Source: Siphonodentalium dalli (Eukaryota; Mollusca; Scaphopoda; Gadilida; Siphonodentaliidae). Taken from it: DNA of 64,000 nt. Positions 2,290 through 61,143 of the stretch are shown piece by piece. Position numbers and translations under genes: made by a program. The stretch lies in contig CP136069.1 in the NCBI GenBank assembly GCA_032622095.1, forward strand, positions 40,400,194-40,464,193, in the 5' to 3' direction. The notes beneath the pieces are model-generated. The model worked only from the letters and a program-made list of their open reading frames with translations, was not told the DNA's origin and made no database searches. How positions within the stretch are numbered: the first letter of the stretch is position 1; every line of letters starts with the position of its first letter.

Positions 2290-2645
2290 AACCATGTTGG
2301 GGTAGATTATGGTTCCCTTAAGAACGCTGTTCTGATATACGAAAGGTTCTCTGAAGAATCCTCGTGTGACCCTTATGATGGGGTCCCCCGAAGTACCATC
2401 TGGGGTTCTTATAAAGGTTCCCCGAAGAACCATGTTGGGATATATTATGGTTCCCTTAAGAACCCTGTTCTGTTATGAACAGGGTTCTCTGAAGAACCCT
2501 CTTGGGGTTCTTCTGTGGAACCTTATGATATGGTTCTTCAGTAGAACCTTATGCTGGGGTTCTTTTAAGCACCAAATAAGGTGCTCCTATTGTGACAAGG
2601 TGAAGAACCTTTTTGGGTTCTCTGAAGGACTTCTGGTTCTAAGAG
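2290..2645. repeat. Degenerate GGTTCT/AGAACC repeat tract
   Basis: Imperfect repeats of GGTTCCCTTAAGAACCCTG type; units contain both GGTTCT and AGAACC, so the tract can fold on itself. It leads directly into the 49/53-bp minisatellite at 2646. A peptide duplication seen in one frame is a by-product of the repeat and is not evidence for a gene. Confidence 0.7.
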
Positions 2646-3233
2646 TGCACACGGTTCTAATACCGCCGTTCCTGGATCTGAATTAATATAATCCCATGTG
2701 TACACGGTTCTAATACCGCCGTTCCTGGCTCTGAATTAATATAATCCTACGTGTACACGGTTCTAATACCGCCGTTCCTGGATCTGAATTAATATAAGCC
2801 CATGTGTACACGGTTCTAATACCGCCGTTCCTGGATCTGAATTAATATAAGCCCATGTGTACACGGTTCTAATACCGCCGTTCCTGGCTCTGAATATAAG
2901 CCCATGTGTACACGGTTCTAATACCGCCGTTCCTGGATCTGAATTAATATAATCCCATGTGTACACGGTTCTAATACCGCCGTTCCTGGATCTGAATTAA
3001 TATAAGCCCATGTGTACACGGTTCTAATACAGCCATTCCTGGATCTGAATTAATATAAGTCCATGTGTACACGGTTCTAATACAGCCATTCCTGGATCTG
3101 AATTAATATAATCCCATGTGTATATACACGGTTCCAATACAGCCGTTCCTGGATCTGAATTAATATACCCCCCCCCCCATGTCCACACATACAGCCATTC
3201 GTGGATCTGAATTAATATAATCCCCCTGTCCAC
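2646..3233. repeat. 49/53-bp minisatellite, block 2
   Basis: About eleven tandem copies of the same unit as at 1-455, mostly the 53-bp variant. It ends with a C-tract (about 3169-3178) and two diverged units. It lies only some 35 bp upstream of the first exon of the acyltransferase gene. Confidence 0.95.
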
Positions 3234-6300: not shown

Positions 6301-9300
6301 GGGTCGCCGAGCCCGTGCGACGCCAGATTCGCGCATGCGCAGACCAGATCTCGGAAACGGGTAGAGCTATCGACTTGAAATTTGGTTTTTGAATAGCGTC
6401 GGGCTGGGTAGAGCTATCGACTTGAAATTTGGTTTTTGAATAGCCCGGACAACGTCGGGCTCATCGGCTAGTCTATTATATATTTTGGAACTTCTGTCTG
6501 TATGTGTGTATGTGTGTTTTAGACTTATTTATTTACCACTTAATTTTAGAGTTATCCATCTTTATCTGCAAGACCGTCCGTTTGACCTCATGCTTCCTCG
6601 TGCTTGTGGCCCAAAAACAATTGAAATAATAAACTTCAAAAATCGATATCTGATCACTCTGAGCTTTGATGGGTAGGTTCCTCGACTCGAATCAAATAAT
6701 TTTTACCCCCGAAGCCAAAGAAATAGTAATTTAGGAGCGTCTGATCGAATTGAATACCTCTAACAAGCATCGTTATGCAAAAGTATGCCACGCAAGTGAA
6801 GATTACAGCAATTTAGTTGGCTGACAAAAAATAAAAACGTGTTAAAACATCCTCATTTGAGAGTCGATATCTGTCCAGTAGAACCTCATATTAATGGGTC
6901 CGATCCAACTACTGTCTGGTATATAACATATTGATACAAATTGTGGTTTTATAGTGTCAAATGAGACAGAACATCTTTATTGTGTGTATATATAGTGGAT
7001 GCCTTCTGGCAAATTATCAGTCGCTGCATATTCATGTACGCCTGGACTTTTTTTTAGTTTCATGAAATATTGGGTTTGTCGGCTTTGGAATGCCAGTTCA
7101 TTCGCCATAGTCTTATATTTATCATTGATAAATCTGAAATAACGACATTTTGTATGTTGATTGGCAATTGCAATTCAAATTTGTTTGTGAACCTGTTTTT
7201 CACATATATATATATACTCTGCGAAGGCATTCGGTCAATTTAACCCGTTCATGAAGGGAGATTCCTGAATTTTTGCGTTTGTGCCAATGCATTGTGCCAA
7301 TGCATTTTGCGTTGTGCCAATGCATTATTTTCTTATGTAGGCGAGTCGACCATAGGTCGCCTCGGATATATAAGAGAATGCATTAGCCTACCAAATTTTA
7401 TATTATTATTTTATAATAAAAGAATGTAAGAAAAAATGAAAAACAAATGATAAATTTTTTTAAAAGAATGTAAGAAATAATGATAAAAATGACAATAATT
7501 TTAAAGACTATAAGAACAAATTATAAAAATTGATAAAGAATGTAAGAAATAATGATAAAAAATTATAAACATTGTTAAAGAATGTAAGAAAAATGATAAA
7601 AATTGTTAAAGAATGTTAGAAAAATTGCTAAAAAATTATTAAAAAAATTGTTAGGCCAAAGCATTCTCTTATATATGTGAGGGCCTTTAAAGTGTTAAAA
7701 TGTCCCCATTACAGGACAGTGTTTAGTGTGATTGGATTACTGATGATCATTGGTACCGCCATCGATGTCTGGTTTCAGAGGCGACACAAAGACACGCATG
7801 CAGACGACGTGTTGGGATTTTCGACTATCGCGGTCACTCGAAGTCTACCATCGAACCAGAATTACAAAGGCCTGCTGGAGAAACCAGATCCTACTAAGAA
7901 TGCAGGTAAATACCATATCTCACATGAGGTTTAGTTTAAAGGTACTCAATCCGATTCAACGTCCTAAATGACTATTTCTTTGGCTTCGGGGTAAAAATAT
8001 TTGATTCGAGTCGAAGAACCCACCCATCAAAGCTCAAAGTGATCAGATATCGATTTTTGAAGTTTGTTATTTCAATTTTGTGTGGCCCAGAAGCACGCCG
8101 TCAAATGGATGGTCTCGGACAAACTTGCGGATGAAGATGGATAACTCTAAAAACAAGTGGCAATACGGTCAAATTTCGTGATACTTTAGTGATAATACAG
8201 CCATATTTTGTTGAACAAAATGTTGATAAATAACAAGTTTTGGGAAATTTGATACCATAGTTGATAGCGGTTAGCATTATTTTGTTGCAATAAATCGATT
8301 CTGATAACTAAAGCGTATTTTGAAGAAATGTTGTTGTTGTTGTATCTTGATGGTATGCGGACCGTCTGATCGGATTGAGTACCTTTAAACAATATTTATT
8401 CAAACATCGATATGTATAATTTCACAATCAAAATGACATTAAGCTAGCACAACATAAATGTTACTTGGATAGAAGATTGTATTGATGAAATGGATTGAAA
8501 AGTACTTGACAACAAACACGGGTCCTGATATTTACCCAGCTGCAAAACAGAGTTCAGTCCCCTCGCTATGACTGAACGCTGCCGGAACGTGTGTTTTCTT
8601 AATGAAATCTAACATTAAGAAATTGAAGTGTTTATCCAGTTACAATTCATTCTGGCTTGATCTAGACCATTTTAAAATGAATATGGACAGTTCAGTTTCT
8701 AAGAATAATGCAAAATGAATTGTAACCTACACAAATCTCGAATAAATAAATGCGACATTTCTTCACATTACGTGAAGGTGCGGTCAGCAGTAAGACCTGC
8801 GTAGGGGACTGAACCTACACGGAACTCGATATTTATCATCTCCTCAAACAAGAAGTAGACGAGAAAGAAATATAGTACAGATTGGGACGGATAACATAGA
8901 AGAAGTATTGATTATTGGTCTTGCTTTTAAGTTGAACGATGACTGTTAAAATTGTCCTAACACATAGTGTGGCTTTAAATATTTTCTAATTGCATGTCAC
9001 AGGTAAGAAAGTAGGCCAGGGCATGGAAGAGTGAAACTATTCCATGTTTTGGACAGAGAGCATGAATGAGTGAATGTATTTTGTCTCTTTCTTTTGTTAT
9101 TATTCTTCTTTATCAATAAACAAATTATAAAAAAAAAAAAAAAAAAAACATAGAAGAAGAAATTACAAATGCTCGAATTTAAAGGAAAAACTCACAGAAA
9201 CCACTTTATATGTCAGCTTCATTGTGATATCCTGTTTATATCTCAGCTTCATTGTGATATCCTGTATTTGCTGAAAGCATACATTTGGTTCAATGATTGG

Positions 9301-12300: not shown

Positions 12301-15300
12301 CTATTGAGATGTAATGCAGGTAATGGTACGCCTCACTTATCTCATCCTGTTCTGCCCATTTCATTTCTGCCCACGTTAAAAAAAAATCGGAAGGAGCTAA
12401 CACAAACAAACTAACATATTGCATTGCTCAAATCATAATGACCAGTTAACATAAAACATGAAAAATAGAACCACACTGTCTCACCAGTTCCTAACAGCAG
12501 AAAATGATTAGATATAAAGATAGTTATTTGTGAAAAATATTAACGCTTTCGGAAAAAATATTAAATTTTCCACTGTCGGTGGCCATTTTGGCGGCAATCT
12601 TAGGAAGTTGCAATGTTTCCAGAAAGATGGAATTATGTCTTAGCTTCACAAGCAGATGTACATTCTTATATATTTGATATTATTTTTCTCACTAAAATCG
12701 ATTCATCCTGATTATATAGTGGTTCGTCGAAAAAACGGACGCCTTGTTTGGTGAGGATTATTTGAAATCCAATCGGGATTTTCAGACGGGATTCCGGTCA
12801 AAATCCCCCGGAATTCCTAGAAATCTCGATCAGAATCCGGTTGTATATTCCCTCAGTAAGTCCAAGAAATCACGGTCGGGATAATGGATATACTACTCAA
12901 ACACCGGCCGACATCAATACAAATCCCTTTCAGAATTTCGTTCAAATCCCGGTTAAAAAATCGCTAAAATCCGTCCAGAATACGGCCCAATCCCGGATAT
13001 TATTCCGTCCAGATTCCGATAAAATCCTATATAAATCCCGGTCGTATTCCGATATCCGATTATGTGTTTGCCGACATTATAAATATCGAGATAATGTCGT
13101 ATTTGCTCCCCCTATTCTTATGGTGTTTGGACGAATATGTTTTTTGAATGTCACTGGAATTTGTCGTAGCATATAATCCGACGAAAGGCAAATCTTTGAG
13201 TACAGGTTTACATACTGTGACATTGAGGAGCCGGGAAACGATCTTATTACTATGTGGTATATTTGTGAGTTTTGTTGAAAACCCATAATCGTAACAACGG
13301 ATAGGGTAAAACAACAACGAATAGAAAGAACACAAATTATGGTGACGTAGTACCCTATTCATAATAATTATCTGTTGTCGTTCATTGATTGAAAGGAGTC
13401 TAATCAATAATTACGCAAGCAGACACCATGACAACATTGAAAAAGTTGTTATTTTTCTTTCTATAGTGGACTGCTGCTTACTTACCTTGCTTTGGTTGAG
13501 ATGAAGAGCAAGAACGGCAAACTGAACTGGCCCATGTTCTACATCCACCGATATTGGAGGTTCGTTTTGAGCAAGGGCGTGGCTACTTATAGGGGGTTGG
13601 GCACACGTATATCACGAGCACTAGCTGCTTCAATCTAAGCCTGAACTTTACCCAACAGAACGGCCTTGTGCCAATGCATTCTCTTATATATGCGAGTCGA
13701 CCATAGGTCGCCTCGCATATATAAGAGAATGCATTGGCTTAACACATATTAAAAATGATAAAATTGTCAAAGAATGTAGAAAAATAATATAAAAATTGTT
13801 AAAAAAAATGTAAGAAAAAATTATAAATTGTTAAAGAATGTAAGAAAAAATGGTAAAAAGTTTTTTTTTTTTTTTTTTTTAGGCCAATGCATTCTCTTAT
13901 ATATGCGAGGCGACCTATGGTCGACTCGCATATATAAGAGAATGCATTGGCACAGGACATAACTGTAACCATCACAATGTGGTCAATGAACCGGTTCCAA
14001 TGATATCCATATTTGTATGGTGTTATTGAGACAGACCGAAGATATTTTAGGCTGTTGAAGCTTTATTTGGGCGTTTTTGGCCGTTTTGTTGGGTAAAGGG
14101 TTAAACAGTTCGAAATATGTGTGCCTCACACAACATTATAGTATGTCCAAAAATACATTGAAATGTTTCTCATAGCTTGATTTTCCCGCCAGTATTTGGT
14201 GGTTTTTAGACAAAAATATAATATTTTCCTTCTTTCGGTCATGTTTTTGGTTTGGGATGACCACTTTTTGGAAAAGTTCGAACCTAGCTCATACGGGATA
14301 GTATGTTTCCATCAGTTGGATGGAAAGCTTGAAATTTCAAAATGGATATTTCTGTCTGGTTCACGGATGTGCATTTGGAAATTCCAAGTTAGACGCCACA
14401 CGAAGACCCTGTATCCACGTTCACACGAAGACCCTGTATCCACGTTCACCGAAGACCCTGTATCCACGTTCCGGGCTGTGAGGGAGTTTATTATGAACAT
14501 TCACAAGAAAAATCATTTATACCAAATTAGTAGTGGTTGAGACCGAGTCCAACTGTCAAGGGCAAACATTCCAATGGAAATTCTAACTATAAATTCGCAC
14601 GGCAAGTTCAACTTTGAACTTATATCTTAAATGCCAATAAAACAACTTCCACCGAAATCCCATACGCAATGTAACAGGATTCCCGTTTCTTTGTTGACGA
14701 TATATTTGCACGTACAGATATTTCTAGGGCCTACATCTATGGGTATATATGGAGACCCACACATGACTAAGTTAGTAAAATGCCCGACACAGTATAGGAC
14801 AAGATAATCCGTCTAGCGATGGCGAAGTTGGTTCCAATCCCAATCAGCCCGGATTTATGATCCACCCACAGTACCGGAAATGTTATTCGTGTATCTGGAC
14901 AACAGTTTGTCAGTTGCTTTCCGGTGGTCAGTTATTTCTATATACGTGCAATGGAATAATTTCCCCGCTGAAAAAACTAACAACGTCGTGATATGGGCTA
15001 TAGGCTAATCCCCAAATAAACCAACCAACCGATATTAATGAGTATATGCAAGCCCCCTCGCCATAGTTCGTGTATTTCGTGTCTGTTTACAGGCTGACGG
15101 CGCCCCTGGGCCTGGTCATGCTGTTCTATATACCACTGTTCCATTACTGGTATGATGGACCATTCTGGCCAGAGGATGGGATCGAGTCAAACTACTGCAA
15201 AGACACGTGGTGGTACAACTTGCTGTACATAAATAACTTCACCACGAAACAGGTGAGTACCCGTATATGTCAATACAACATAAAGCATGCATGCCAGATG

Positions 15301-16604: not shown

Positions 16605-19600
16605 AGAAGACGTGAGGGACAGATGAGTCGTGAAATGATGACAGTGGTGGGGAATTTTCAATAATTGAGTTGTTACGTGGTTACAATTTTGCTCGTCTAG
16701 TAAGTTGCATGCGTCAGAAGCCATGTTAGGGGGTCAATCACATTGGCTGTTAACTGGTTCCATCCGTCAAAAAGTAATTAATTAAACAGACACACACGGC
16801 TACGAGTGTTCATAATCAAAGTATGTCGTGGAATATCTAACTTTCGTGAGAACAAGTACGTATTCAGTAACACTAACCCGAAACAGGACAATTCCTATTT
16901 CAAGGGTGTTCACTGTGAATTTCGGAGCATCCCTCATGTGGAATCGTTGCATGTATGTGCAGGCTAATAGCAAGTAAGTAATATACAAAGTAATCGTTAT
17001 CGGAAGGCATTTAGTGCTATATATATTCTGGGGGATATCTTGCTGCCGCATAACGCGACCGGAATCCAAAGCAATTTGTTACTCGTTCAAATCATGGGAA
17101 TCTTTTTGTTCTCATAATATATGTCTGTACTGCATTAAATATTTGTTTGTTTTCACGAAGACTAAGCTCCCTTGATCCCCGTAATAGAGTATTCTCAGAT
17201 AGGACAACATTTGGTAGTGAATCATATAGTTCTCTTCTGGCCTCTTGATAAAATGTACACTCAAAGAGATAGTGGTAAGTTGTCTCGAGTTCCCCACATA
17301 AACAGAAGGGGAATTGTTTTACATGATTGTCTGTCAGGTCACAACTCAGGTGGCTGCAGTTCAGTCTTAACCGGGTATGAAGGATATGAGATTTACAGCT
17401 TTTACTATGATACAAATATGCAGGTGGACGTATATTGTCACTGTTGAGTTTCTTTTTGAAATCTTCGATTGTACTGGTGCCCTTTGTAGTTTCCGGCAGT
17501 TTGTTCCATTCAGTAATTGCAGCTGGTAAGAAAGAATCCATATAATAGTCATAGTTAATATTCGAGGGTAGTCTTATATGTTCAAATCTGAAGTTATATC
17601 TGGTATTATTTGCCTGGATTGGTCGTACATAATTTCTTAAAATTTATGGAGCAGTTCCACGTATCATTTAAAAAAATTGTCATAGCTTGTGTTTTCTATG
17701 ACGTGAGGAGAGGAGTTCCCAGCCAGTTTCTGATAAAAGACGCTCGTTACTCGTACTGATGGTTGCACCTGTTACTATTCGGGCCATTTCGTACTGAACC
17801 TTTTCAATGTCATCACTAAGATAATTAGGGCAGTTATCACACACAGGGGAGGCATATTCCAGTATTGATCGGACAAATGTGTAATGTATTTTTTCAAGCG
17901 TTACTCTGCTTATCCTGTATCTGTGTTTACGTACTAAGTTTACTCGACTCCACGCTTTATCAAGCATAGATTTGATGTGGATTCCCCATGAGCCCATGTT
18001 GTCGAAAGTAAGTCCCAGGTGTTTATGGCTGTCAACCTCAACAATTGTCACGGCTCCCATGGTCAGAGGTGGATGATATACTGGTGTTTCTTTCCTGGAT
18101 ATTAAGAGAGCTTCAGGTTTTAGGGGATTGAATTTTACAAGCCATTCTGATGCCCAACACATGAGAGTGTCGAGGTCATCATTGATTAGTTTTGCGGCCA
18201 TAGTGGGGTCTTCGATAGTGAGAAATAGAGAGGTATCATCTGCAAATAGACGAATGTTGCACCGTATATTTTCGGTTTTATCATTAATATAAATTAAAAA
18301 CCGAAGAGGGCCTAATATTTAGACTTGTGGGACACCGGCTGTTACATCTTGTAATTCCGAATGTGTGCCGTTTATGACAACTTGTTGCTGCCTACATTCA
18401 AGATACGATTTCATTAAGTTATACAAGTTTCCTCTTATACCCATTTTCGTCAGTTTGTTCAAGAGGCCACGGTGCCAGACTTTATCGAACGCTTTACTTA
18501 TGTCGCAGAATATACACCGGACCTCTTTTCCGTCGTCTAGTGATCGACATATATTGTCATATATTTCGGTAAGTTGGAAAACTGTTGAGTCATTGCACAT
18601 GAAACCAGCTTGGTAAAAGGATAGGAGTTTGTTTTCATCAAGAAATTCCCATAGATATTTATAAATGCATTTTTCATAGACCGTTGAAACGCAGCTTAGT
18701 AAGGAAATTGGTCGATAATTTGATATAAGACTGGGATAACCGCTCTTGAATATAAGTGTAACATGGGAATGCTTCCACTGAGGTGGGTAGTACTGTTGTC
18801 GGTAAATATTTAAAAATAGTATTGAAGAGTTTCACAGAGCGAGGAGGCGCAATTTTTCAAAACTCTCGGACTTATTCCGTCGGGCCCACTTGACTTAGAT
18901 ATTTTGAGACCTTTTAACGCTTTGTAAATGTCAGGGGTTGTGATTTTTATATCGCTTAACGTGGATATGGAGTTATCAGGATCGAACACTGGTAGGCGTT
19001 TCCCGACATCATCAACTGATGAAATATTACAAAAATAGGTATTGAATGCATTTGCTTTTTCAGTTGGTGAGATCAGGAAGTCGCCGTTTATGTTTAAGGG
19101 GAGTATTAATCGATCTCTGGTTGAAAATACTACTTTTTGAAGGGTTTTCCACCAAGATGACTGGTCATTTGATGGGTTATTCAGTGTATTTTAATTAGTG
19201 GTGTCATAATCACGTTTGCTTTTTCTAATAGCCGATGTAGTTTCATTACGTTTAGATCGAAAATTTGCCCATGTTTGTGGTGTGTTTTGCTTTTTAGCTA
19301 TCTTATGTAATCGATTTCGTTGCCTCATTAGCCTCCGTACATTACACGTAAGCCACTGGGGACTGCCTTTTCGGATCAGTACTATCTAATTGGGGATATT
19401 TTCGCAGCATACCTTCTCAATTTTTGCAATCAAGGTATCTGCATGTGCTGATAGTTCAGATTGTGTATTATCATAGTTCCAGCTCAAGAAGTCATCGTTC
19501 ATGGTATCGAAGTCAGCCAGATTATAATTCCAGACACGTCTAGTGAGCGTTTTCTAATTGATCTTAACCCTTTACCCAACAGAAGGGCCCTGTGCCAATG

Positions 19601-31600: not shown

Positions 31601-34600
31601 AGACAGGAGCGTGTTGTGTGATCCTTATGTCTGTGTTCGTACTTAAGGGTTCCTAGGAATGGGGGAGATTTTCATCGGGTCAGTTTTTCCGCCAGAGGTG
31701 ACCTTCACCTTGAAACGGGTACCCACAAATTATATATATGTATGTGTGTGTCCGTTATAGACTCGAAAACGGCCCTACCGATGGAGTCCAAACTTGCTAC
31801 CTAGGGCAACTTTTGTCCGGGAACTCTCATGGACCAGTCAAATTGTGACCCCGACCTGACCTTGACCTTCAAAATGATCAATTCAAGGTCAAAGCCCGGA
31901 CGAAGTCGGTAACCTGCTAGTAATATATACTGCATAATATTAGACAAATCGTATACGATTGAATTCGGTCCGTCAAAAAATGGAGCATGTTCTATTTTAT
32001 TCGCACGGACAGGAACAACGTTTACGAACTTTTAGCGTACACGTATAGGTGTGACCACACCGACGGAAAGCTATAGTTTTCATTCCAATCCGATGACGTA
32101 TACGACTGACATATCAATCATCGGATCCTTGACGTACGATGGTGTGACTGTAGCCTTTAACCCTTTCAGTACCATTTTTTCTTATATTGTTTAACAATTT
32201 TATAATTTGTAATGTATTAAGCCAATGCATTCTATGGTCGACTCGCATATATAAGAGAATGCATTGGCACAGGGCCCTTCTGTCGGGTAATGGGTTAAGA
32301 CAAGCTTTGCATTACAATCAACATATGCACATATATATATGCGTAAAGCACCGGTTCCATATCCCCGATTTCCCACCCCGAATGTTCCCGAATGACTCCC
32401 GAATCATAATTTTGCAAAAATCGTGGAGTAAGTTCGGGACGAGTCGGGACAGTGAATTTTTACCCCCGAACATGATCGGGGATATCGGTGCTATCGGGGT
32501 CGATTCGGGACAATTCTGGACTCGCTCCCGACAGTTTTGAAATGTTCAAAACTATCGGGAACCAAGCCGAATCGCTCTCGATTTGTAAATCATCGGGAGA
32601 AATTCGGGAGCAATTCGGCACCTATTCGGGAGTAGTCGGCAGTATTCGGCAATATTCGGATGGATATTCTGGAGTAGTCGGCAGTATTCTGTAGGTTATT
32701 CCCGAATTCGCCATATATGGCTGCTTTTATACTGAGATCGGTGTATCTGCAAAAATTGGCATCGATTCGGGACGTTCGGCAGCAATTGCATACCAATTCG
32801 GTATCTATTCGGCATCAATTCGGTACCAGTTCGGCATTGATTCGGGGTATTCGGCAACAATTCGGTGTAAGTCGGTAGTAATCTGGGCAATTTGGTAGCC
32901 ACTCGCACGAAAGTTCGGGATAATTCTTGATCATTCGGGAAGATATTCGGAAGCATTCTGGAATACTCGGCAATGTTCGGGACGATTAAATTATGTCATA
33001 ATTCGGCATCAGTTCGGCGGCTTTTTGGAATAAAACTCGTCCAGAATTCTCTCGAATGCTGCCGATTTGGTCTGGTCCCGAATTTGTGCCGAATATACTA
33101 CTTCGGGATAGAAATTCGGGAATTTGGAACCGGGGCTTAACTATAAAGAAACAGAACAATCTCTATAGAGTGAATTGGAATTATATCAGAATATTACAAA
33201 ATCGTTCAGGTTTATACACACTGAATTAAAAACGAATATTACTCATCGGAAAAAGAGGACATTTAATCTGACAGACTCGATTCTTTAATAAAGATGATGA
33301 TTTAAAGATGCATAATCCGATTAAGCGCCCCTCAATTACAATTTATTTGGTTTCGGGGGTAAAAAATATTTGATTCGAGTCGAGAAACCCACCTGTCAAA
33401 GCTGAGAGTTATTAGATTTTTGAAATCCATTATTTTTCATCATCGAGACGTATTAATGGATCAGTAAATAGCCAACGAGCCGATGGTCTCGGACCAAGGG
33501 TGGATAACTCTATAATCAAGAGGCTTTGTGTTGATAATAAGGCCAAATTTCGTCGAACAACATGTTGATAAATAACACGTTTGGGAAAATGTTATACTAT
33601 ATATAGTTGGCAGTCATTAGCATTATGTTTGGGCAATTAATCGATTATAATAACTGAAGCGGCATGTCTAAAATGTTGTTGTTGTTGGAATCTGATTATA
33701 TGTGGACCATCGAATCGGGTTGAGTACCTTTAATGACGATAAAGCAGTTCTATATGCGTTCGTATTTTAGAGGATTGGGGCGTGGGGATATGGGCATGAA
33801 TGATTATTACTCGAAGCCTTGGTGTCGCATGGGTCCTTATCTAGTCGGAATGATCGCCGGATATATGCTATACAGATACAATTGCAGATTTAAAATACAC
33901 AGGGTAAGTTGATTATGAATAGAAAACGGCCATTTGCATTTACATTTATGTAAGAGGCCATTGAGTTCCATTACATGAGTTTGCTGTTGTATATGATATT
34001 TTATCTTACACCGGTTTGATGTTATACTGTGTATTCTAACTGCACTTAAGCCAATATACCCCCTGAAACATCACATATTTGCGGGGGGTTATTCATCGAT
34101 AACCTGTCGTAATGTATAGTCCGGTTCACCGCTTCAATGTTAGATATTCCTACGCGCCAATATTGCCGTCAGCTAAATTCCTAATCTCCTCCCTCGTGGT
34201 GTCCATGCCCAATCCAGCTCCGCACACTATTCCGTTTCTCTCCGTGACGTCACCCTTACGCAGTACGTGTCGGTGACGTTACGGAGTAGATGTATAGAGT
34301 AACGGGTCTACTGACTTCCGTTACTAGCTCGTTGCTATATAAACAAACCAGCGGCATCGCCTTTGTCGAAATTTGACTGTCAGTATATTCGCCCTGCATA
34401 CATGTACTTTCAGAAAGCACTAAACACCACGATATATCCCATTAATATCATTGTTTCGATATCATATGACCAAATTTCTTGACATGAAACCGCGAAAAAT
34501 ACGGCTTGAAATACATCTCATTGAGTAAAAAATTGTCCATTGTTTCAAATTCAATTCAACTTCAAGTTCGCGGTAAAATAAAAACCGCAATTTGTAAGTG

Positions 34601-37600: not shown

Positions 37601-40600
37601 TGTTTATATAGCGATAGGTTTGCTAAAATTGTTATCTATTTATTTTATATTTTATTCTCGATCTTAAAGGGGTACCTTACAGTAAATCCGGCCAGTTATG
37701 GGAACTCCAACTCCCTTTATACACAGCAGAATACATGTATATGCAACAAATGAATGAATTTGAGTCATTCTTGTGCTCAATGAACGATGCAAACAACATG
37801 GTAATTATAAAGAAAATTAATTTATTACTCTAGCCATTTATGCTAATTCATTATAATTACCATGTTGTTTACATCGTTCATAGAGCACATGAGTGTATTT
37901 TGCACTAAGCCATGTCTCAAATTCATTTATTTGTTGCATATATTATGTTGAGTATAAAAGGAGATGATCCCATAAATGACCGTATTTAGTATACAGTACA
38001 CCGTTAAGGACGAGCCCTGTATGAAAACCTAGTTTCATAACGTTATAATAATAATTCGTCTTTTATACATGTATAAAACCTATATATTCCCATTCCACAT
38101 ACACCTGATCCAAGAGATATATTATATTCATGGGAATAAAAACTAACCTTGCAGTCTATCGCCATTCGCCACTGAGATGGAATTTGGGATTAAAAAGACA
38201 GACACACATTGGTTATATTTTAATATGGGAGGTAATCAGATTCACGATATACGACAGTATGTGATAGAAGTGTCATTTCAGACAGTATTTAACCCTTTAC
38301 CCAACAAAACGGCAAAAAATGCCCAAATAAAGCTTCAACAGCCTAAAATATCTTCGGTCTGTCTCAATAACACCATACAAATATGGATATCATTGGAACC
38401 GGTTCATTGACCACATTGTGATGGTTACAGTTATACCCTGTGCCAATGCATTCTCTTATATATGCGAGTCGACCATAGGTCGCCTCGCATATATAAGAGA
38501 ATGCATTGGCCTAAAAAAAATCTTTATTAACACTTTTTACCATTTTTTCTTACATTCTTTAACAGTTTTATAATTTTTTCTTTCATTTTTTAACAATTTT
38601 TATAATATTTTTCTACATTCTTTGACAATTTTATCATTTTTAATATGTGTTAAGCCAATGCATTCTCTTATATATGCGAGGCGACCTATGGTCGACTCGC
38701 ATATATGAGAATATGCGAGGCGACCTATGGTCGACTCGCATATATAAGAGAATCCATTGGCACAGGGTAAAAAAATCCCGACTTCCGTTCTGTTGGGTAA
38801 AGGGTTAATTATAGCTTGTGAAAAAGTTAATCTTTGTAGTTTGAGATCCGCGGCTCCTTACATTAATTCTAAAATGCTAAAACTTCAGACGTAAACTTTA
38901 TATGTCAGACAGTGGATTAGATTAAAACAATGCAATTCAAGAAATAACTAGTGTGCAATCATACCATAAAACGTATAAAAGTAATACAGGAATAGATAAT
39001 AAATAGCAACTAAAGAACACGAAGTTACCACGGATCCATATCGAAATACGTAAAGCAGCTTTTAAAATCAGATTTTGAGAGTCGAAACGTTTGAGTGAAT
39101 TTGACGATCTGTTTCGAAGCAACAGGCGATTTTTCTTTTGGAACAATAGGATCAAGTTACATAGATTGTTTCGGAGGAAATGTCTCAACGACAGAATATG
39201 TATCCACAACCTGCGCCACAGATTCTGGAACAGGAATAGTAATAATATCAGTCTCATCACATATATAGAGGATCTCACATGAGTTTCTATTTTATACGGA
39301 ATTTATCAACCGAGTTCACTAAATTCGATTTGAGCCGAGGTTTACCGAGGCTCAAATAGAATTTAGTGGACGAGGTTGATAAATTACGTATAAAATAGAA
39401 CGAGTTTGAGATACCTTTTATCACATGATCAAATAAACCCGAAGCAACGCGCAATATTCATCGAAAACAACAATCATAAACTACAGCGATCGCAAGTTAT
39501 TTGAAGAACGCCGTGACGTCATCGCACGCGCTGATATTAAACGTGTCTATTACCGATAATTATGAAACTGCTTTTATGGCCAAATTATGTGATAAAGTGA
39601 TATACTGACGAGTTTGGTTTGACTTTGTGTCTGAGTGCTGATATCAACACACTTTTTTGTAGACACAATTGCTGAGTATGTTACCTGTGGAATGTATGGT
39701 CGATGACCAACTATTTTCTTAGCATCTGTATATGAAAGATGCTTCTCAGCTTTACATCGTTGAATCTTGAATGCGTAATCCCAAATGGGACATGAACGAT
39801 CCATTACAGCATGTGAACCTTGACAGTTCGAAATTTTTTAGGATCCTTTTGATCATGACCAGAAACAGAACAGCGCGCACATGTGGTTTCTTTACTTCTA
39901 CAATGTTCCTGGCCATTTCCCTGGTATTTAAAACATCGTAATGGATTTGGTACACATGTACTTATATCTATCTTCATGTACCAAACCTTCGATATCGGTG
40001 GATGTTCACACAAATTGAAGGTCAGAAGATAACTATTCAGAGGAACTCTTAGTCCATCAACATTCTTTGTAAATCTACCTACGAACTTATGTAACACCCT
40101 GCGGTGCCAAATCCGTCAATATTTCTGATTCCGAAGAATCAGCTATATCGCGGGTCTGCTACTATTCAATGTCATGTGAGGAGTAACCAACACTGGTGTC
40201 TGTGCAATAATTGTTAACTGCAACATAGCATCAGACTGAACTTTCTTTGAACATTCAATCAAGAGACAGAGAGAGAGAGCCACTTATTGGCCCAGTCCTG
40301 ATTGGTTTAACGGATTTCAATTGTCCAGCAATGCTTTGTAGCGTTTTATCAGTGACAAAGATAGAAGGTCTTTTCACATTTGTGTCAAAGCCAAGAATCA
40401 AGTACTGAGAGAATATCACAGCATCATTGGAACTTGGTGAGTCATCATTCTTACAAGCAATACGTTTTGGTTTGAGTATATATACTGGGTATGTATCGGT
40501 ATACATGTCATTTTAGTTTACTATATATACTGGGTATGTACCGGTATATGTGTGATTAGTTTACTATATATACTGGGTATGTACCGGTATATGTGTGTTT

Positions 40601-45754: not shown

Positions 45755-46397
45755 ATGCATGAACACATTGCATAAGCAATCACCGCCATGTAAAATCACA
45801 TACGAAACACCTGTAATATATAGGTAGTCAGTGGTGAAAATTCTAATAATAGACAAGAACAATGCTTTACGTCTTAACCAAAGCATTCCAATATGACCTC
45901 CAGGGATATGTTTATCAAATTTTAAAACTGGTAGAGAAGTATAAAAAATGTCACAAAACTCACAGAAAACAACTAGCAATCTTATCATATGTAGTAAATA
46001 ACACTATACTGGAAGCAGATTAAAAAAATATGCGGCACTTACTTACCAACCGAAATCTGACTTTGTGGGCAAGTACATACATAACAGACAGATAATTTGC
46101 ACAACAGAAAGTATATTTTGATTAAAGAGAATTCCATAAGAAATGTTTTGTTGAGAAATCAACAGTTTATAGTACCGAAACGTATTTAATTTCAATGTTC
46201 CAAAGTGAGGGCATGAATTGTAACTCAACTTCACCAGAAAGTAAACGGCTATGTTTGGCACCGACTGTAGTGTCTGGTTAATACAGTGGACCGGGTTCAC
46301 TCAACTACCCAAGCATATCATTTAACATTGCCAACCTGGTCCAAATCTCAATCATGATTAATCAAGAGATTGGTTGATGAATTCGGTTACGTAGCGT

Positions 46398-47585
46398 TTT
46401 TCCGAAGACCCATAACTCCGAACGTCCGATTCTCCGAAGGTCAGATTCTCCGACGCCCCGATTCCCCGAAAGCCCATAACTCCGAAGTACCGATTCTCCG
46501 AAATCCCATAACTCCGAAGACCCATAACTCCGAAAGCCCATAACTCCGAAGGCCTATAACTCCGAACGCCCATAACTCCGAAAGTATATAACTCCGAAGG
46601 GCCGATTCTCCGAAGGTCCGATTCTCCGAAGGTCCGATTCTCCGAAGATCATGTTTTATCGCTTATTAAATAGTGTACAGTCCAGTGGCGGGGTCAATGG
46701 GGCCCTATGGAAGACCGCCCCCCAAAAAACGTGTCAAATGTCATGTAAACGTCAGGAAATCCCTCCTAGGCATTCAAATATTCACAGTGTTCCTGCCCAG
46801 GGGAGCCCCCGGACCAACGATTGGGGGCGACCCCTCCCATGTATGCGCTCCCCAAATCAGGCTTTCGTGATATGCTTTCGGCATATCATATGCATGATAT
46901 ATCCCCCACATATTCCCCACATATGCTAATTAATGTGCACGCCTAAATGGGAACCCTGGCCCCGCCACTGGTGTGCACCGGGTATATTATAACGAAACGC
47001 TGCAAGAATGTCAGAGTAGCCTAACATGCACAGGGGCGACAAGTTCTTCCCCGTTCACCCCTGTACATTTTACTCTGGCATCTCATGGGCCAACGTAACG
47101 TTATAGTATCTGGTGTATAGTCAGTGGCGGGCCAGGATTCCCATTTAGGTGGGGGCAGTAGGAAAGTTTGAATATTTTGATGCCCCATGAACGATTTCCG
47201 GGCGTTTACATGACATTGGACATGTTTTGGTAGGGGCCCATATTGTCTGAACTAGCAAGTAGAGGTTTAATGGGGGCAGTGGGAATTTTGGGACCCCTTG
47301 GCTTCGCCACTGGACTGTACACTATTTAGTAAACGATAATACCCCGATAAAACAAAATCTTCGGAGAATCGGACCTTCGGAGAATCGGACCTTCGGAGTT
47401 ATGGGCCGTTGGAGAATCGGGCCTTCTGAGTTATAGGTCTTCGGAGTTATACGTCTTCGGATCTTCGGCCCTTCGGAGTTATGGGCTTTCGGGGAATCGG
47501 ATCTTCGGAGTTATGGGCCGTCGGAGAATCGGGTCTTCGGAGTTGTGGGCCTTCGTAGTAATAGGTCTTCGGAAAACCGGTCTGA
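46398..47585. mobile_element. Foldback element with minisatellite arms (TCCGAA type)
   Basis: The left arm 46398-46648 is an array of units of about 18 bp such as CCATAACTCCGAAGGCC and CGATTCTCCGAAGGTC; the right arm 47355-47580 is the same array inverted (CTTCGGAGTTATGGGCC). Between them a separate unit has its own inverted ends GTGTACAGTCCAGTGGCG (46674) and CGCCACTGGACTGTACAC (47306). Non-coding. Confidence 0.88.
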
Positions 47586-48094
47586 CACCGATGAATTCCC
47601 ACTGGCAGGAAGAAACTGAATAGAGTGATAGTCAAACTGAGCTGTGTGATATTTCAAATCTCAAACACGTACTTCAAAACATGAGAATAAAGTCATGTTA
47701 TGTGGCATAATGTATGAGTTTCTCGACAAAACGTTCTTGATAGAGATATCCCAAATCAGGATTTACTTTTATTTATGGAAATTGCTCAACTACAAAACTT
47801 GTGCCTTCGTACAAAGTCGGATTTCAATTGTGAGGAAAGTATAAACTATTTCCAATTTCTTTCACAGTTAAAGTGTTATTTACTGTATATAATGCATGTA
47901 TAGTTGTTTTTAGCCACTCCTGCAAAGTTTGTGCCATTTATTTTCTATTTTAAAATATATACAAATTGTTCTCGGAGTCTATATTGGAGTGGTTTGGTTA
48001 AACCCTAAGCTTCCATATTACTCACATGTCTTGATGCAAACAGTATCCATGATGCACGTATAATCTGGTATATTACGAAAGCACATTATGGCCA

Positions 48095-48970
48095 TCCGAA
48101 ACCCTACAGCACGCCCAAATATACAAGTACACAACTCGTTAGGGCCATCTGAAACCCCACGGCACCCCCAAATATACAAATACACAACTCGTTAGGGGTC
48201 ATCCGAAACACGACCGCACCCCCAAATATACAAATACACTACTCGTTATAACGACTTGAAAGTGGTTATAACGACTTCCAACAACTCGTTATAACGACTT
48301 CCAACAACTCGTTATAACGACTTCCAAGTCGTTATAACGACTTACTACTCGTTATAACGGCTTCCAATTATTAATAACTCTTTATAACTTCCGGCAAGCC
48401 GTTATAACGACTTGTAGCAATAAAATAAAAACAAGTCGTTATAACAACTTGTAAAACTACTTGTTTTTATTTCTAAAAGTCGTTATAGCGACTTGCAAGT
48501 CGTTATAACGAGTTGTAAATCATTATAACGACTTGGAAGTAGTTATAATGAGTTACTGGAAGTATAGTTATAACGACTTTCAAATCGTTATAACGAATTG
48601 TAAGTCGTTATAACGACTTGGATGTAGTTATAACAAGTTGTTGGAAGTCGTTGTAACGACTTGCAATTCGTTATAACGACTTCCAATAACTCGTTATAAC
48701 TACTTCCAAGTCGTTATAATGACTTATAACTTATAACTCATTATAACGACTTGCAAGTCGTTATAATGACTTCCGGCAAGTCGTTATACTGAGTTGTCGG
48801 AAGTCGTTATAACGACTTGTAGCAATAAAATAAAAACAAGTCGTTATAGCGACTTGTAAACTACTTGTTTTACTTCTACAAGTCGTTATAACGAGTTGTA
48901 AATCATTATAACAAGTCGTTATAACGAGTTGTGTATTTGTATATTTGGACATGCGTTGTGTTTCAGATGG
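48095..48970. mobile_element. Foldback element filled with AAGTCGTTATAACGACTT-type repeats
   Basis: The outer inverted sequence is ATATACAAATACACAACTCG at the left and ACGAGTTGTGTATTTGTATA at the right, with GAAACCC/TTTCAGATGG remnants. The interior 48235-48930 is an array of units of about 20 bp built on the palindrome AAGTCGTTATAACGACTT. The left end region is itself triplicated (48095-48250). Confidence 0.85.
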
Positions 48971-49929
48971 CGCTAATGCGCTTTCGTACGTATGTGACTA
49001 CAGACATCTGACAATCATGTACTTATAATAAATTCAGTCAGAAAACACAGATAATAATAAATAGCGCTCACCCCTGACAAGAGCATGTAATCGATCAGTT
49101 CTTAAGGGTCAGATGCACGTTTTGCCAAAATTTCCTGGTATTTCAAAATGTATTTTCTCATAATCTGTCAGGAATATCTTTGTGACATTTGTTACAAGCG
49201 ACTATTGTGGCACAATGTTTATGAACAATCCATTGGATAGTATAACTTAATTTACTTTACTTTAGGGGATGCAACATATTTAAAAGTTCACTATTTTCCG
49301 GTAACTGCACGCTTTATTCTTCATTATAATATAGGGGGTATGATGTTATAATACGCAATTAAAAATCTAACTCAACATTATGATACAAATGAAGCATCAT
49401 CAAATAGAGCCAAGACAATAAGCGATTATGTGATTTGAGTGTTGTGTGAAATTATTAATTATTCTAGCAGTTCTTGGTACCGAAAGAGACAAAAAAGAAC
49501 ATTTTATTGTCAACCTCTGAAATGTATTAAAATCCATTGTTTTTATCGTCTCTTAATAATTGATCAGATTCCATATACAACGACGATGATGATATGTGCA
49601 ATTCAAGATTTTTCGCGAAATCTATCCAGAGAAATTCTTTGTTGAAAATATCTTGCCATTTTTGGCTCAATCGTGTGTCTCCCCCTTAACATAGTGATAC
49701 AAACAGGTCAAAACACTAAACACAGGCAGTGGAGTTAGTGCTACCTTGAGCTTCAAATTACTACGACACTGAACGACATACGATATGTTGGTAGTTATCA
49801 TTACAATAAAACAATTATGGCTTCAACTTCTATTGTTTTGAATTAGTTTGCCATATTTATACTTAGAGACTTATTTAGTTAACATAGAATGCACCGAAAT
49901 ATATTGACAGTGGAGTTTATTCCGAGAGT

Positions 49930-57799: not shown

Positions 57800-59925
57800 T
57801 AATTGCGACATTTATTAAATAATCTACGTGCTTTACTGGATGGTCATGCGCCTTTAGTCACACGCAAAATTCGATGTCGTCCATCTACCCCGTGGTTCAA
57901 TGATGAAATAAAGAGTGCCAAAGCTGATAAGCGGCATGCTGAGAGGAGATAGCGAAAATCCGGTCTGACAGTTGATCGTCAAATCTATGTTGAAAAGAAC
58001 AACCGTATGAATCAAATGACTAGATCTGCCCGTTCGGAATATTATAACTCTAAAATCGCGAAAGCTAAATCAACAAAAGTCATCTATTCCATAACCAACG
58101 AACTAAGTGGTAAGAAAAAAGTACCAATTCTTCCTACTAATGTTAAAGAAAGTGAATTACCGGATGCTTTTGGTGAATATTTCCGTGACAAAATTGCAAA
58201 CCTGCGTTACCAGCTAGATGTATCAAATACTGAAGCAGAGTTCAAACCGTTCGTTGGTGACAGTCTTAGTTCGTTCTGCAAGCTTACATGTGATGAGGTC
58301 AATGAACTTATTTTATCATCCACTTCAAAAAACATGTGTTTTGGATCCCATTCCAACTTCTTTACTGGTGGACCATATCGATTTTATATTAGAACCACTC
58401 ACAAGGCTCATAAATTGGTCTTTGTCTGAATGTGTTGTTCCTGACTGTTTTAAGGAGGCCGTTGTGATTCCCCTGATTAAAAATAATTCTCTGGATGCCG
58501 ACTTGCTAAAGAACTATAGGCCCATCCCAAACCTTCAATTCGTCTCGAAGCTGTTAGAAAAAGCTGTCCTCAAACAACTGAGAAATCATATGGAGAAACA
58601 TTTCAGTCAGCGTACAAACCTGGTCACAGTACTGAAACTGCATTGTTGTGTATCACTTCAGACCTTCTTCTTGCCAGTGATGATAACAAGTTTTCACTAG
58701 TATCCCTGCTTGACATGAGCGCAGCTTTCGATACTCTTGATCACGAAATACTGTTGAAGCGATTGGAAATTTCTTTTGGGATATCTGACAGCGCGCTCAA
58801 ATGGTTCGGTTCATATCTCTCTAATCGTGTTCAGAGGATTCAAATTGGCAGTGCGTTTTCCAAAACCTTTCATCTGCAATATGGAGTCCCTCAGGGGTCT
58901 GTCTTGTAATTAATCTACACCAAACCACTTGGTGAGATCACCAGGCGACACAGTGTCTCTGCGCACATGCATGCTGATGATACACAGCTTTACATTTCTG
59001 GTGATAACCCCTATTTTCTTCTCACTGTAATGGAAAACTGCATCGGTTCTGTGAAATCGTGGATGTTGGCTAATAAACTAAAATTAAATAGTGACAAAAC
59101 TGAAGTAATGTGGGTGTCTAAGCCGTCATACATAGAAAAGGTGGGCATAGATGTTATGACTATTGATGGTAACCAAGTTTATTTCTCAGATAGCGCGAAG
59201 AATTATTTTTGGATAGATCACTCTCTATGACATCACATATTAGCCAGATATGCAAGACAATAGACATTGAACTTCGAAAACTGGGTCAAATGAGGAAATA
59301 CATAAACACTGACTCAGCTAATAAACTTGCTTCATCTCTGATTCTCAGTCGACTTGACTATTGCAACTCTCTTTTGGCTGGTATACCATATATCCAAATT
59401 ACCAGGCTCCAGCGTCTGCAACACACTGCTGCAAGGATAGTTCTGTGTCGTAAAAGATCTGACGACACAGATGAAATGTTGCAAGAACTACATTGGCTAC
59501 CTGTGACAGATAGGATTATTTATAAACTTGTTACATATGCATATCAAGCAACCCATGACCCAAAATCTCTTCCAGCATACTTCAGTGATATCCTTGTTCC
59601 GTATGTCCCACACCGATCACTTCGTTCAGAGGACAAACTTCTTTTGACACCATCTGGTGCTAATTTGATCACGATTGGCTACCGATCTTTCAAAGTAACA
59701 TGCGCAAATGCATGGAATCCTCTGCCATTGAACATAAAAGAGTCACCATCTCTTGACGACTTTAAAAAGTCATTGAAAACTTACTTGTTTGCGCGGCGTT
59801 TCAGAAAGTGACTTTGATATTGTGTATATTTATATTTCTTATTTATGTTTATGTCAAGCGCTTAGGGCCCGCTTATTGGGGATAAGCGCTATACAAATAT
59901 TATTATTATTATTATGTAAATCTAC
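57800..59925 (+). mobile_element. CR1-like LINE, 5'-truncated and frameshifted, with 3' tail
   Basis: In order on the + strand: a linker TRKIRCRPSTPWFNDEIKSA (about 57858); EYYNSKIAKAKSTKVIY; a frameshift near 58330; LLKNYRPIPNLQFVSKLLEK; a frameshift near 58640; LLDMSAAFDTLDHEILLKRL (RT domain, first catalytic Asp); YGVPQGSVL then a stop (58907-58909); MHADDTQLYIS (second catalytic pair, His in place of the usual Tyr/Phe); ANKLKLNSDKTEVMW; then a long intact C-terminus with SRLDYCNSLLAGIP and QRLQHTAARIV ending at 59811. After it comes a short UTR with GATAAGCGCTATACAAATAT and an ATT repeat (59900-59914), a usual 3' end for such LINEs. Not active. Confidence 0.92.
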
Positions 59926-60080: not shown

Positions 60081-60708
60081 ACCGGCGGCGTTGGCGGTGG
60101 GTATGCTGTTAAAATATTCACGTCCGTCAAAAACCGCCATAAACCGAAAGAATAGTAAAATATAGACAGACTTTATTTTTATACCAATCAGAAATATGGA
60201 ATAAACAGTATGTTATTGTCAAATGTTTTTCCTTTGTTATGTAAACAAAAGCAAAAAACGTTACAGAACATAGCTTTTGTTTAGATCCGGATATGGTAAA
60301 CATAAAGAGCGTTTTTGTTACTATTTTCCTGATATGGAAATAATAAAGAGCGTTTATATCATTTCTGTGTGATAAACCAATATAATTGAGCTGTGTTATG
60401 TAAACAGAAGCAAAACTTCTGTAACACGAGCAGGCTCGTGTTTACGTACTCCATCGTACGTCTTGACGACAATATACTATTTACTCGCTGATTATGTTTG
60501 GCATATGAACAAAACTATATATATTTTAATATTCCTTCTGTTGATGGCAATTTGAACAAATATGAATATTTCTGCAGCGAACGCCGCCCGTGCCTTTAAG
60601 CAATTTCAGAACTCGTTGGAAATATATGCATGCTACTCATGCATATCTCAACATAATTGTAACCGTTAATTATAATAGTGATTTCGAGAAAGCACTCGAT
60701 TGACGAAC

Positions 60709-60951
60709 CTTCAAAGTTGACTTTTCCATCTCCACTAATATTGGCTCCATTGATCATTTGGTCGGCCTCCATGGCCGTCATATTTTCGCCAAGAGTTGCC
60801 ATCACTTGACGTAATTCGGCAGCGGTGATGAAACCATCACCGTCTGTGTCGAAGGCACGGAACGCTTCTTTTATTTCACTTTCACATGCAGTTGCGTTAA
60901 TTTTCCTGGCCATGAACGTCACGAATTCGGGTAAGGTGATTGTCCCGATCC
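60709..60951 (-). CDS. Calmodulin-like EF-hand protein, single internal exon
   Basis: 81 residues aligning with the middle and C-terminal half of calmodulin: [15 protein letters not shown] (end of EF-hand 2), [20 protein letters not shown] (EF-hand 3), [14 protein letters not shown], then [11 protein letters not shown] (EF-hand 4). Loop 3 is canonical (D-D-D-F-T-E). Loop 4 starts with Asn and has Ser in place of Asp at position 3, so calcium binding should be weak. The visible end of loop 2 has Ile and Thr where calmodulin has Asn and Asp. The acceptor CTTCAG follows a pyrimidine-rich stretch and the donor is GAAG|GTTCGT; the last G can start the Glu codon at loop position 12. I found neither the N-terminal half to the right nor the final short exon to the left. 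A member of an expanded calmodulin-like group is more likely than calmodulin itself. Confidence 0.85.
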
Positions 60952-60989
60952 CTGAAGACAAACATGGACTCATCGGGTCAGGAAAACAG

Positions 60990-61143
60990 TATGGTACTTG
61001 TCACGTGTAGAACAAAGAATAAATTTAAAGCGATACAAGAGGTTGCACGAGCGATGCTGGCATTACAGGGTGGTACTTGTCACGTGTAGAACAAAGGATA
61101 AATTTAAAGTGATACAAGAGGTTGCACCACTGGTGCTGGCATA
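60990..61143. repeat. Tandem duplication of ~77 bp
   Basis: GTACTTGTCACGTGTAGAAC, then AATAAATTTAAAG and GATACAAGAGGTTGCAC occur twice in a row, about 77 bp apart, just upstream (minus strand) of the calmodulin-like exon. Confidence 0.95.

Follow-up and report, generated by a model that had tools for sequence, protein, structure and literature searches.

The window analysed here, a 64,000-nucleotide stretch of contig CP136069.1 of the scaphopod mollusc Siphonodentalium dalli, contains two facing arrays of short tandem units that share the motif TCCGAA. This raises the question of whether such a structure is a local rearrangement or a copy of a mobile element and, if the latter, what kind of element it is. 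A sequence-only reading had described a foldback element at 46398 to 47585 whose arms are inverted minisatellites with units of ~18 bp. A two-unit pattern (up to three mismatches) has 28 matches in the window, 15 on the forward strand (46401-46646) and 13 on the reverse strand (47360-47573), with no matches outside the two arrays and a mean of 0.06 (maximum of 1) in 100 shuffles of the window. The inverted arrangement on opposite strands is therefore borne out, but unit starts lie exactly 16 bp apart in both arrays rather than ~18 bp. Two unit types occur, A (TCCGAAGGCCCATAAC) and B (TCCGAAGGTCCGATTC). We conclude that the structure is very probably a non-autonomous DNA transposon of the Mutator superfamily, of the Phantom/Muta type, with foldback terminal inverted repeats (TIRs) built of tandem repeats.

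The element is real, with ends slightly further out than first proposed. It occupies positions 46385-47589 (1205 bp; Table 1) and is flanked on both sides by the 9-bp sequence GATGAATTC, directly repeated outside 16-bp tips that start with GGT. A repeat of at least this length occurs in 106 of 20000 random, equally spaced pairs of 40-base stretches. Sequence alone would also allow a left tip that starts with CGGT, accompanied by a 7-bp repeat; we prefer GGT because in most other copies 8-9-bp repeats directly abut a tip with this start.

Table 1. Features of the window element and of three larger relatives (A1-A3)
Feature	Window position, or length	Strand	Remarks
Left target-site duplication GATGAATTC	46376..46384		direct repeat outside tips
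Left tip GGTTACGTAGCGTTTT	46385..46400	+	881 genome matches to 23-base tip pattern
Left array, 15 units x 16 bp	46401..46640	+	ABBBABAAAAAABBB from outside in
Left terminal repeat, inner part (linker, CAGTGGCG module, inner linker)	46641..47038	+	A1 alignment
CAGTGGCG...CGCCACTG module, left copy	46683..46970		288 bp
Internal-deletion junction	47038..47039		element 655/654 join = A1 3000 / 7507
Right terminal repeat, inner part	47039..47365	-	element 654-1196 = A1 7507-8081, 86.6%
CAGTGGCG...CGCCACTG module, right copy	47122..47313		192 bp, inverted relative to left copy
Right array, 13 units x 16 bp	47366..47573	-	AABABABAABABB from outside in
Right tip, inward reading GGTGTCAGACCGGTTT	47574..47589	-	861 genome matches to 22-base tip pattern
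Right target-site duplication GATGAATTC	47590..47598		direct repeat outside tips
A1	6015 bp		outer repeat AGTATGGT
A2	6099 bp		outer repeat GTTTGAGAC
A3	spans 7828 bp		outer repeat GGGATATA; transposase ORF interrupted

The foldback character proposed earlier is supported by the predicted structure of the element as a single DNA strand, which has a folding energy of -359.2 kcal/mol as compared with -163.6 +/- 3.8 in 20 dinucleotide shuffles, and in which 168 of the 240 left-array bases are paired with the right array. The three longest ungapped pairings between the arms of the window copy are 205-233 nt long and 71-78% complementary, while the two arms of one copy have a mean identity of 88.9% across 51 copies (gaps allowed, not counted). 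The element thus has the long inverted repeats with internal tandem units of a foldback-type TIR. As the sequence-only reading had also noted, the centre has inverted parts of its own, with left-to-right identities (gaps not counted) of 90% for the linker, 76% for the CAGTGGCG...CGCCACTG module and 79% for the inner linker. No coding capacity was seen in this single copy of a mobile family: it has no MULE ORF, and its longest frame (117 aa stop to stop) has no Pfam match. Rfam and tRNA scans of the window gave no match.

Several other repeats lie in the same window. A second foldback-like repeat at 48075-48987, 0.5 kb from the element, has inverted ends ACGAAAGC...GCCATC.GAAAC (inner part aligned, outer part recognised by eye), three 53-bp tandem copies of its left end, an interior of ~20-bp self-palindromic units (AAGTCGTTATAACGACTT) and, by eye, no clear target duplication. 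A third repeat at 32343-33141 combines inverted ends of 40 nt (GTAAAGCACCGGTTCC...) with 10-11-bp ATTCGG units that share one strand. Additionally, the intervals 17095-18831 (-), 58218-59808 (+) and 60599-61000 (-) hold retrotransposon-like reverse-transcriptase frames, recognised by eye with no Pfam match in the pieces tested, and an EF-hand frame that has Pfam EF-hand matches and is calmodulin-like by eye. Related-looking AT-rich minisatellites of ~31 bp occur at 7417-7653, 13751-13851 and 38527-38641, one of them on the strand opposite to the other two.

The tips of the element recur many hundreds of times in the genome of the species. Allowing one mismatch, the 23-base left tip pattern has 881 matches and the 22-base right tip pattern 861 in the 2.2267-Gb, 9-contig assembly, whereas reversed control patterns for both tips have none. 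Among the best 40 of 1640 candidates scored for the left 316 bases, the window copy matches at 100% and the 39 others at 98%; the best 40 of 1237 candidates scored for the centre are full-length and include the window copy. The first 100 places were listed for each tip pattern. The 100 left tips listed are all on contig C1, and 73 of them have a listed exact, in-register right tip within 8 kb, at lengths of 890-1601 in 72 cases and 4018 in one (median 1252). The remaining 27 exact left tips are without a listed right-tip partner. By these matches the element is a non-coding mobile element of an animal genome, present in many hundreds of dispersed copies. An assembly artefact was ruled out, as the arms differ from each other and the copies are dispersed. 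Exact arm patterns found no match in viral contigs and prokaryote genomes, and blastn against phages gave no arm match; two pattern matches (L001, L002) look like chance, and blastn of the window against their sequences returned nothing.

We examined 57 copies, comprising the window copy, 20 selected by left-arm similarity and 36 by centre similarity, a sample biased to intact copies rather than a census. Both tips are present in 52 and one is missing in five. A perfect direct repeat lies flush with the tips in 44 of the 52 two-tipped copies (8 bp in 33, 9 bp in nine, 10 bp in one and 6 bp in one) and is absent in the other eight; when a group of nine copies with a common flank is counted once, the figure becomes 36 of 44. 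Target duplications of 8-11 bp, as expected of a Mutator-like element (MULE), are thus a regular feature of the family. A copy of the short element, 1275 bp long and 93.8% identical to the window element over 1-1189, sits in the transposase ORF of the larger relative A3. This copy has GTACGGGG on both sides, while A1 carries one GTACGGGG at that place. The comparison with the uninterrupted A1 site is the cleanest support for the proposed boundaries and target duplication.

The larger relatives point to a likely source of mobility. A genome search with PF10551, in which the best 150 of 813 candidates were scored and 30 loci of ~3.3 kb inspected, revealed TCCGAA arrays near the MULE domain at three loci (L053, L056 and L057) and two isolated unit matches at L048; the other 26 had no units within the ~3.3-kb reach. 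Extended outward, these three loci give A1, A2 and A3, which each have a left tip identical to that of the window element, a right tip with two mismatches, both arrays and, between these nearly identical termini, a MULE-domain (PF10551) transposase. In A1 and A2 this is an uninterrupted 423-aa ORF with an N-terminal FLYWCH domain (residues 27-68) and a MULE domain (209-305), as in Phantom. Pfam E-values are 4.6e-15 (A1) and 5.6e-15 (A2) for MULE and 3.3e-5 in both for FLYWCH, the former scoring 56.3 bits against a cut-off of 27.6 and the latter, at 24.4 bits, barely exceeding its cut-off of 23.6. The Pfam scan of the A1 and A2 ORFs found only these two domains, with no PHD finger and no THAP domain. 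When the 423-aa protein was compared with the genome (99 of 1214 candidates scored), seven loci, mostly interrupted or incomplete, were at least 83% identical over substantial stretches, along with two N-terminal fragments of 45-46 aa; all other transposase loci among the matches listed were at most 52% identical. Over the left 4.3 kb, A1 and A2 have 98.8% identity. One observation that speaks against this source comes from C1 (214712325-214725178), where three tandem copies ~5.08 kb apart carry this exact left tip, but the MULE hits ~2 kb away are only 29-30% identical to the A1 transposase; at one of these tips (L119), 301 bases inward match neither the element nor A1.

Alignment with A1 explains the centre. 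Element positions 11-655 match A1 2327-3000 at 86.0%, and 654-1196 match A1 7507-8081 at 86.6%, so the window element corresponds to both ends of the larger element joined, with ~4.5 kb missing. The tips match A1 in separate pieces (~81%) because the arrays differ in length. With ends that match a coding relative and an interior that is missing, the window element has the structure of a non-autonomous deletion derivative. A1-A3 may not themselves be the transposase source for the window element, because its ends are only ~86-87% identical to those of A1 and two right-tip bases differ in all three. On this alignment, the centre consists of the inner stretches of the two TIRs, which meet at an internal-deletion junction at ~47038. 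We sampled 301 bases ~600-900 inward of 20 left tips, taken at about even steps from the listed C1 tips with already-fetched ones replaced by a neighbour. Fourteen read straight through the window element's junction, three (L104, L106, L122) match only the inner right part, one (L105) has a different breakpoint and two (L111, L119) match neither the element nor A1. L105 (C1:79174423-79174723) retains ~140 bp more of the larger element. The genome search that the sequence-only reading had called for does find relatives by the hundreds, but the different centres that it anticipated look uncommon, at least among 20 tips on one contig.

Arms made of tandem units had been expected to grow and shrink, and they do so mostly by whole units. 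Among 51 complete copies (picked by arm or centre similarity, with a full centre required), array length is a whole multiple of 16 in 45 for each arm. The commonest unit numbers are 15 on the left (range 6-16) and 17 on the right (range 3-23), and the 13 right units of the window copy look like loss of four. The left string ABBBABAAAAAABBB occurs in 30 of the 51 complete copies, 17 of which were picked by left arm. Unit number also varies among the nine copies that share a flank and duplication (L013, L015, L017, L018, L027, L081, L083, L085 and L099). Compared with L013, their left 200 bp are at least 99.5% identical and their right flanks 83-100%, while among 47 other copies no left flank exceeds 54%. 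We infer that this group is one insertion amplified with its surroundings, inside another repeat. Its left arrays have 13 (L081) or 15 units and its right arrays 15, 16 or 17, apart from L015, which is off register, and L018, which is mostly deleted. Since unit numbers differ among copies with the same flanks, arm length seems to change after insertion.

The expectation that such arms keep their pairing is correct to the extent that a unit can pair with any other unit, but the arms do not mirror each other's order. We compared 50 copies with L017. In all of them the left arm is nearer the reference left arm and the right arm nearer the reference right arm, with mean identities to own versus opposite arm of 0.993 versus 0.894 (left) and 0.979 versus 0.890 (right); these copies give no sign of conversion between left and right arms. 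Because the arms keep separate orders with no conversion seen, those of the window copy are not collinear, and the comparison of left and right unit order proposed earlier gave nothing beyond shuffles (229, 377 and 290 of 2000 at three gap costs). Adjacent units are no more alike than shuffled ones (731 of 5000 left, 4511 of 5000 right), and array order is therefore without sign of recent local duplication. Nor do we read the unit numbers as a sign of coordinated change of the two arms. The correlation between left and right unit number is weak (Spearman 0.31, p=0.028, and Pearson 0.13 in the 51 complete copies; Spearman 0.39, p=0.024, in 33 centre-picked copies), and a few truncated copies may drive it.

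Within the unit, variation is concentrated in a spacer. In the window, 30 of 45 within-type mismatches fall at positions 7-9 and 11, an unevenness matched by 3 of 20000 uniform draws. When distinct variants are counted, 12 of 27 fall at positions 7-9 (P=0.002), although the distinct-variant test lacks significance when extended to all 16 positions (7975 of 20000 draws). Positions 7-9 hold 27 of 46 mismatches in A1 and 28 of 48 in A2, with distinct-variant P values of 0.003 and 0.0009, respectively; these tests are not independent, as the units have a common origin and A1 is closely related to A2. The unit thus comprises a conserved core of ~11 bp, in which ATAAC or GATTC precedes TCCGAA, and a spacer at positions 7-9 that varies.

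These features are consistent with a mechanism in which the transposase of an A1-type relative would bind the arms and move the short element in trans, each 16-bp unit being a putative binding site with the ~11-bp core, and in which arrays would expand and contract by whole units through slippage or unequal exchange. More tentatively, and with the balance leaning against it, the arms might act as a digital dosage of binding sites, with cores at a strict 16-bp pitch, site number set after insertion and ends carrying unit "barcodes" that do not interconvert. If so, left and right ends would be distinguishable and copies traceable by their arm code. For testing site number and spacing, the family provides hundreds of naturally varying arms behind fixed tips, and also relatives with uninterrupted transposase genes and same-flank copies that differ in unit number.

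Other explanations of the locus were weighed against a Mutator-type transposon. The lack of arm matches in the viral, prokaryote and phage collections would suit a local inverted duplication of a minisatellite at a single locus, but hundreds of dispersed copies, fixed tips and differing 8-9-bp duplications refute that origin and leave it virtually no probability. The sequence-only reading had attributed the nested centre to insertion of one element into another. A composite of this type, a minisatellite foldback element with a second CAGTGGCG element in its centre, draws on the presence of CAGTGGCG...CGCCACTG modules in both halves, with ends that look hAT-like. However, the modules occupy mirrored positions in the two arms, and the same inner terminal-repeat parts that bear them also flank the transposase gene at both ends of the larger relatives; no flanking duplication was seen at the module by eye. 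We consider such a composite improbable, although an ancestral terminal repeat may have captured the module long ago, before the arms diverged.

It is still less probable that the element is moved by another superfamily (P-like, as for Galileo, or hAT) and that its link to MULE is accidental. Duplications of 8 bp suit hAT or P as well. Foldback ends have arisen in several superfamilies, as discussed in PMC3169594 and PMC4079207. Against this, tips and arms nearly identical to those of the element enclose a MULE gene in all three of A1-A3, each of which is flanked by a repeat of its own; the ORF is uninterrupted in two of them. The THAP-domain P transposase of Galileo has no counterpart in the A1 or A2 ORF. 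A Rehavkus-type element, a minisatellite-bearing MULE outgroup, seems to us similarly far-fetched. A 9-bp duplication and a minisatellite are among the Rehavkus traits listed in PMC6446971, but the Rehavkus transposase is given a PHD finger and its minisatellite precedes the 3' TIR, whereas the family described here has FLYWCH and arrays inside both terminal repeats. On domains, target duplication and structure, we assign the element to the Phantom group as a probable foldback-type, non-autonomous member. The kind of element is known; the family may be new, the literature having been searched by element kind and by one eight-base end motif.

Inverted repeats of short tandem units also characterise the TU elements of sea urchin and FB of Drosophila, which we liken to this family by description and not by sequence. 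The closest parallels are among MULEs. Muta1 and Muta5 are MULEs of Aedes aegypti, and Muta1, which transposes in yeast, is termed a "type2 Foldback" (PMC5225508, in part). PMC6446971 groups Muta with Phantom (group 20), gives target-site duplications (TSDs) of 8-10 bp, and tabulates the domain accompanying MULE in Phantom as none, FLYWCH or SWIM. According to the Muta1 account (PMC5225508), a short terminal motif is followed by nine 12-bp repeats separated by spacers of 3-4 bp, at a 15-16-bp period, and there are >300 putative non-autonomous derivatives, whose TIRs often have variable repeat copies. The scaphopod family shares 8-9-bp TSDs, a short tip followed by tandem units and non-autonomous derivatives with Muta1, a likeness of plan. 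In contrast to Muta1, it commonly has 15 and 17 units per arm, a near-constant 16-bp pitch and a long inner inverted region. Internal sequence varies among most Muta1 derivatives, whereas the derivatives sampled here mostly have one centre.

Tm1, a Mutator/Foldback element of Meloidogyne, is also similar. As presented in sections of PMC3169594, it has composite TIRs with short tips and a variable number of ~14-bp motifs that differ between ends, 9-bp TSDs in most elements, and both MITE-like and transposase-bearing classes. Its FLYWCH (5-66) and MULE (197-294) domains are placed close to those of the 423-aa ORF. That source counts 61 Tm1 elements in two species, as compared with 881 left tips here, and its Motif C is 14 bp long in 191 of 334 M. 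incognita units, whereas arrays here are multiples of 16 in 45 of 51 copies per arm. Tetris of Drosophila virilis is likewise a non-autonomous foldback element whose TIRs contain tandem repeats and whose TSDs measure 8-10 bp, but its repeats are 220 bp long and no transposase partner was found, in the account given by PMC4079207. Galileo of Drosophila, a member of the P superfamily, resembles the family in its long TIRs, and the sites in its repeats, bound by the THAP domain of its transposase, are a model for the repeated transposase-binding sites proposed here; it differs in having a P-type transposase with that domain and thus belongs to a different superfamily (PMC3688188, in part). The same source, in 2013, called a role of Foldback and Phantom end repeats as binding sites untested. 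This family, with its arm variants and uninterrupted transposase genes, makes that role directly testable.
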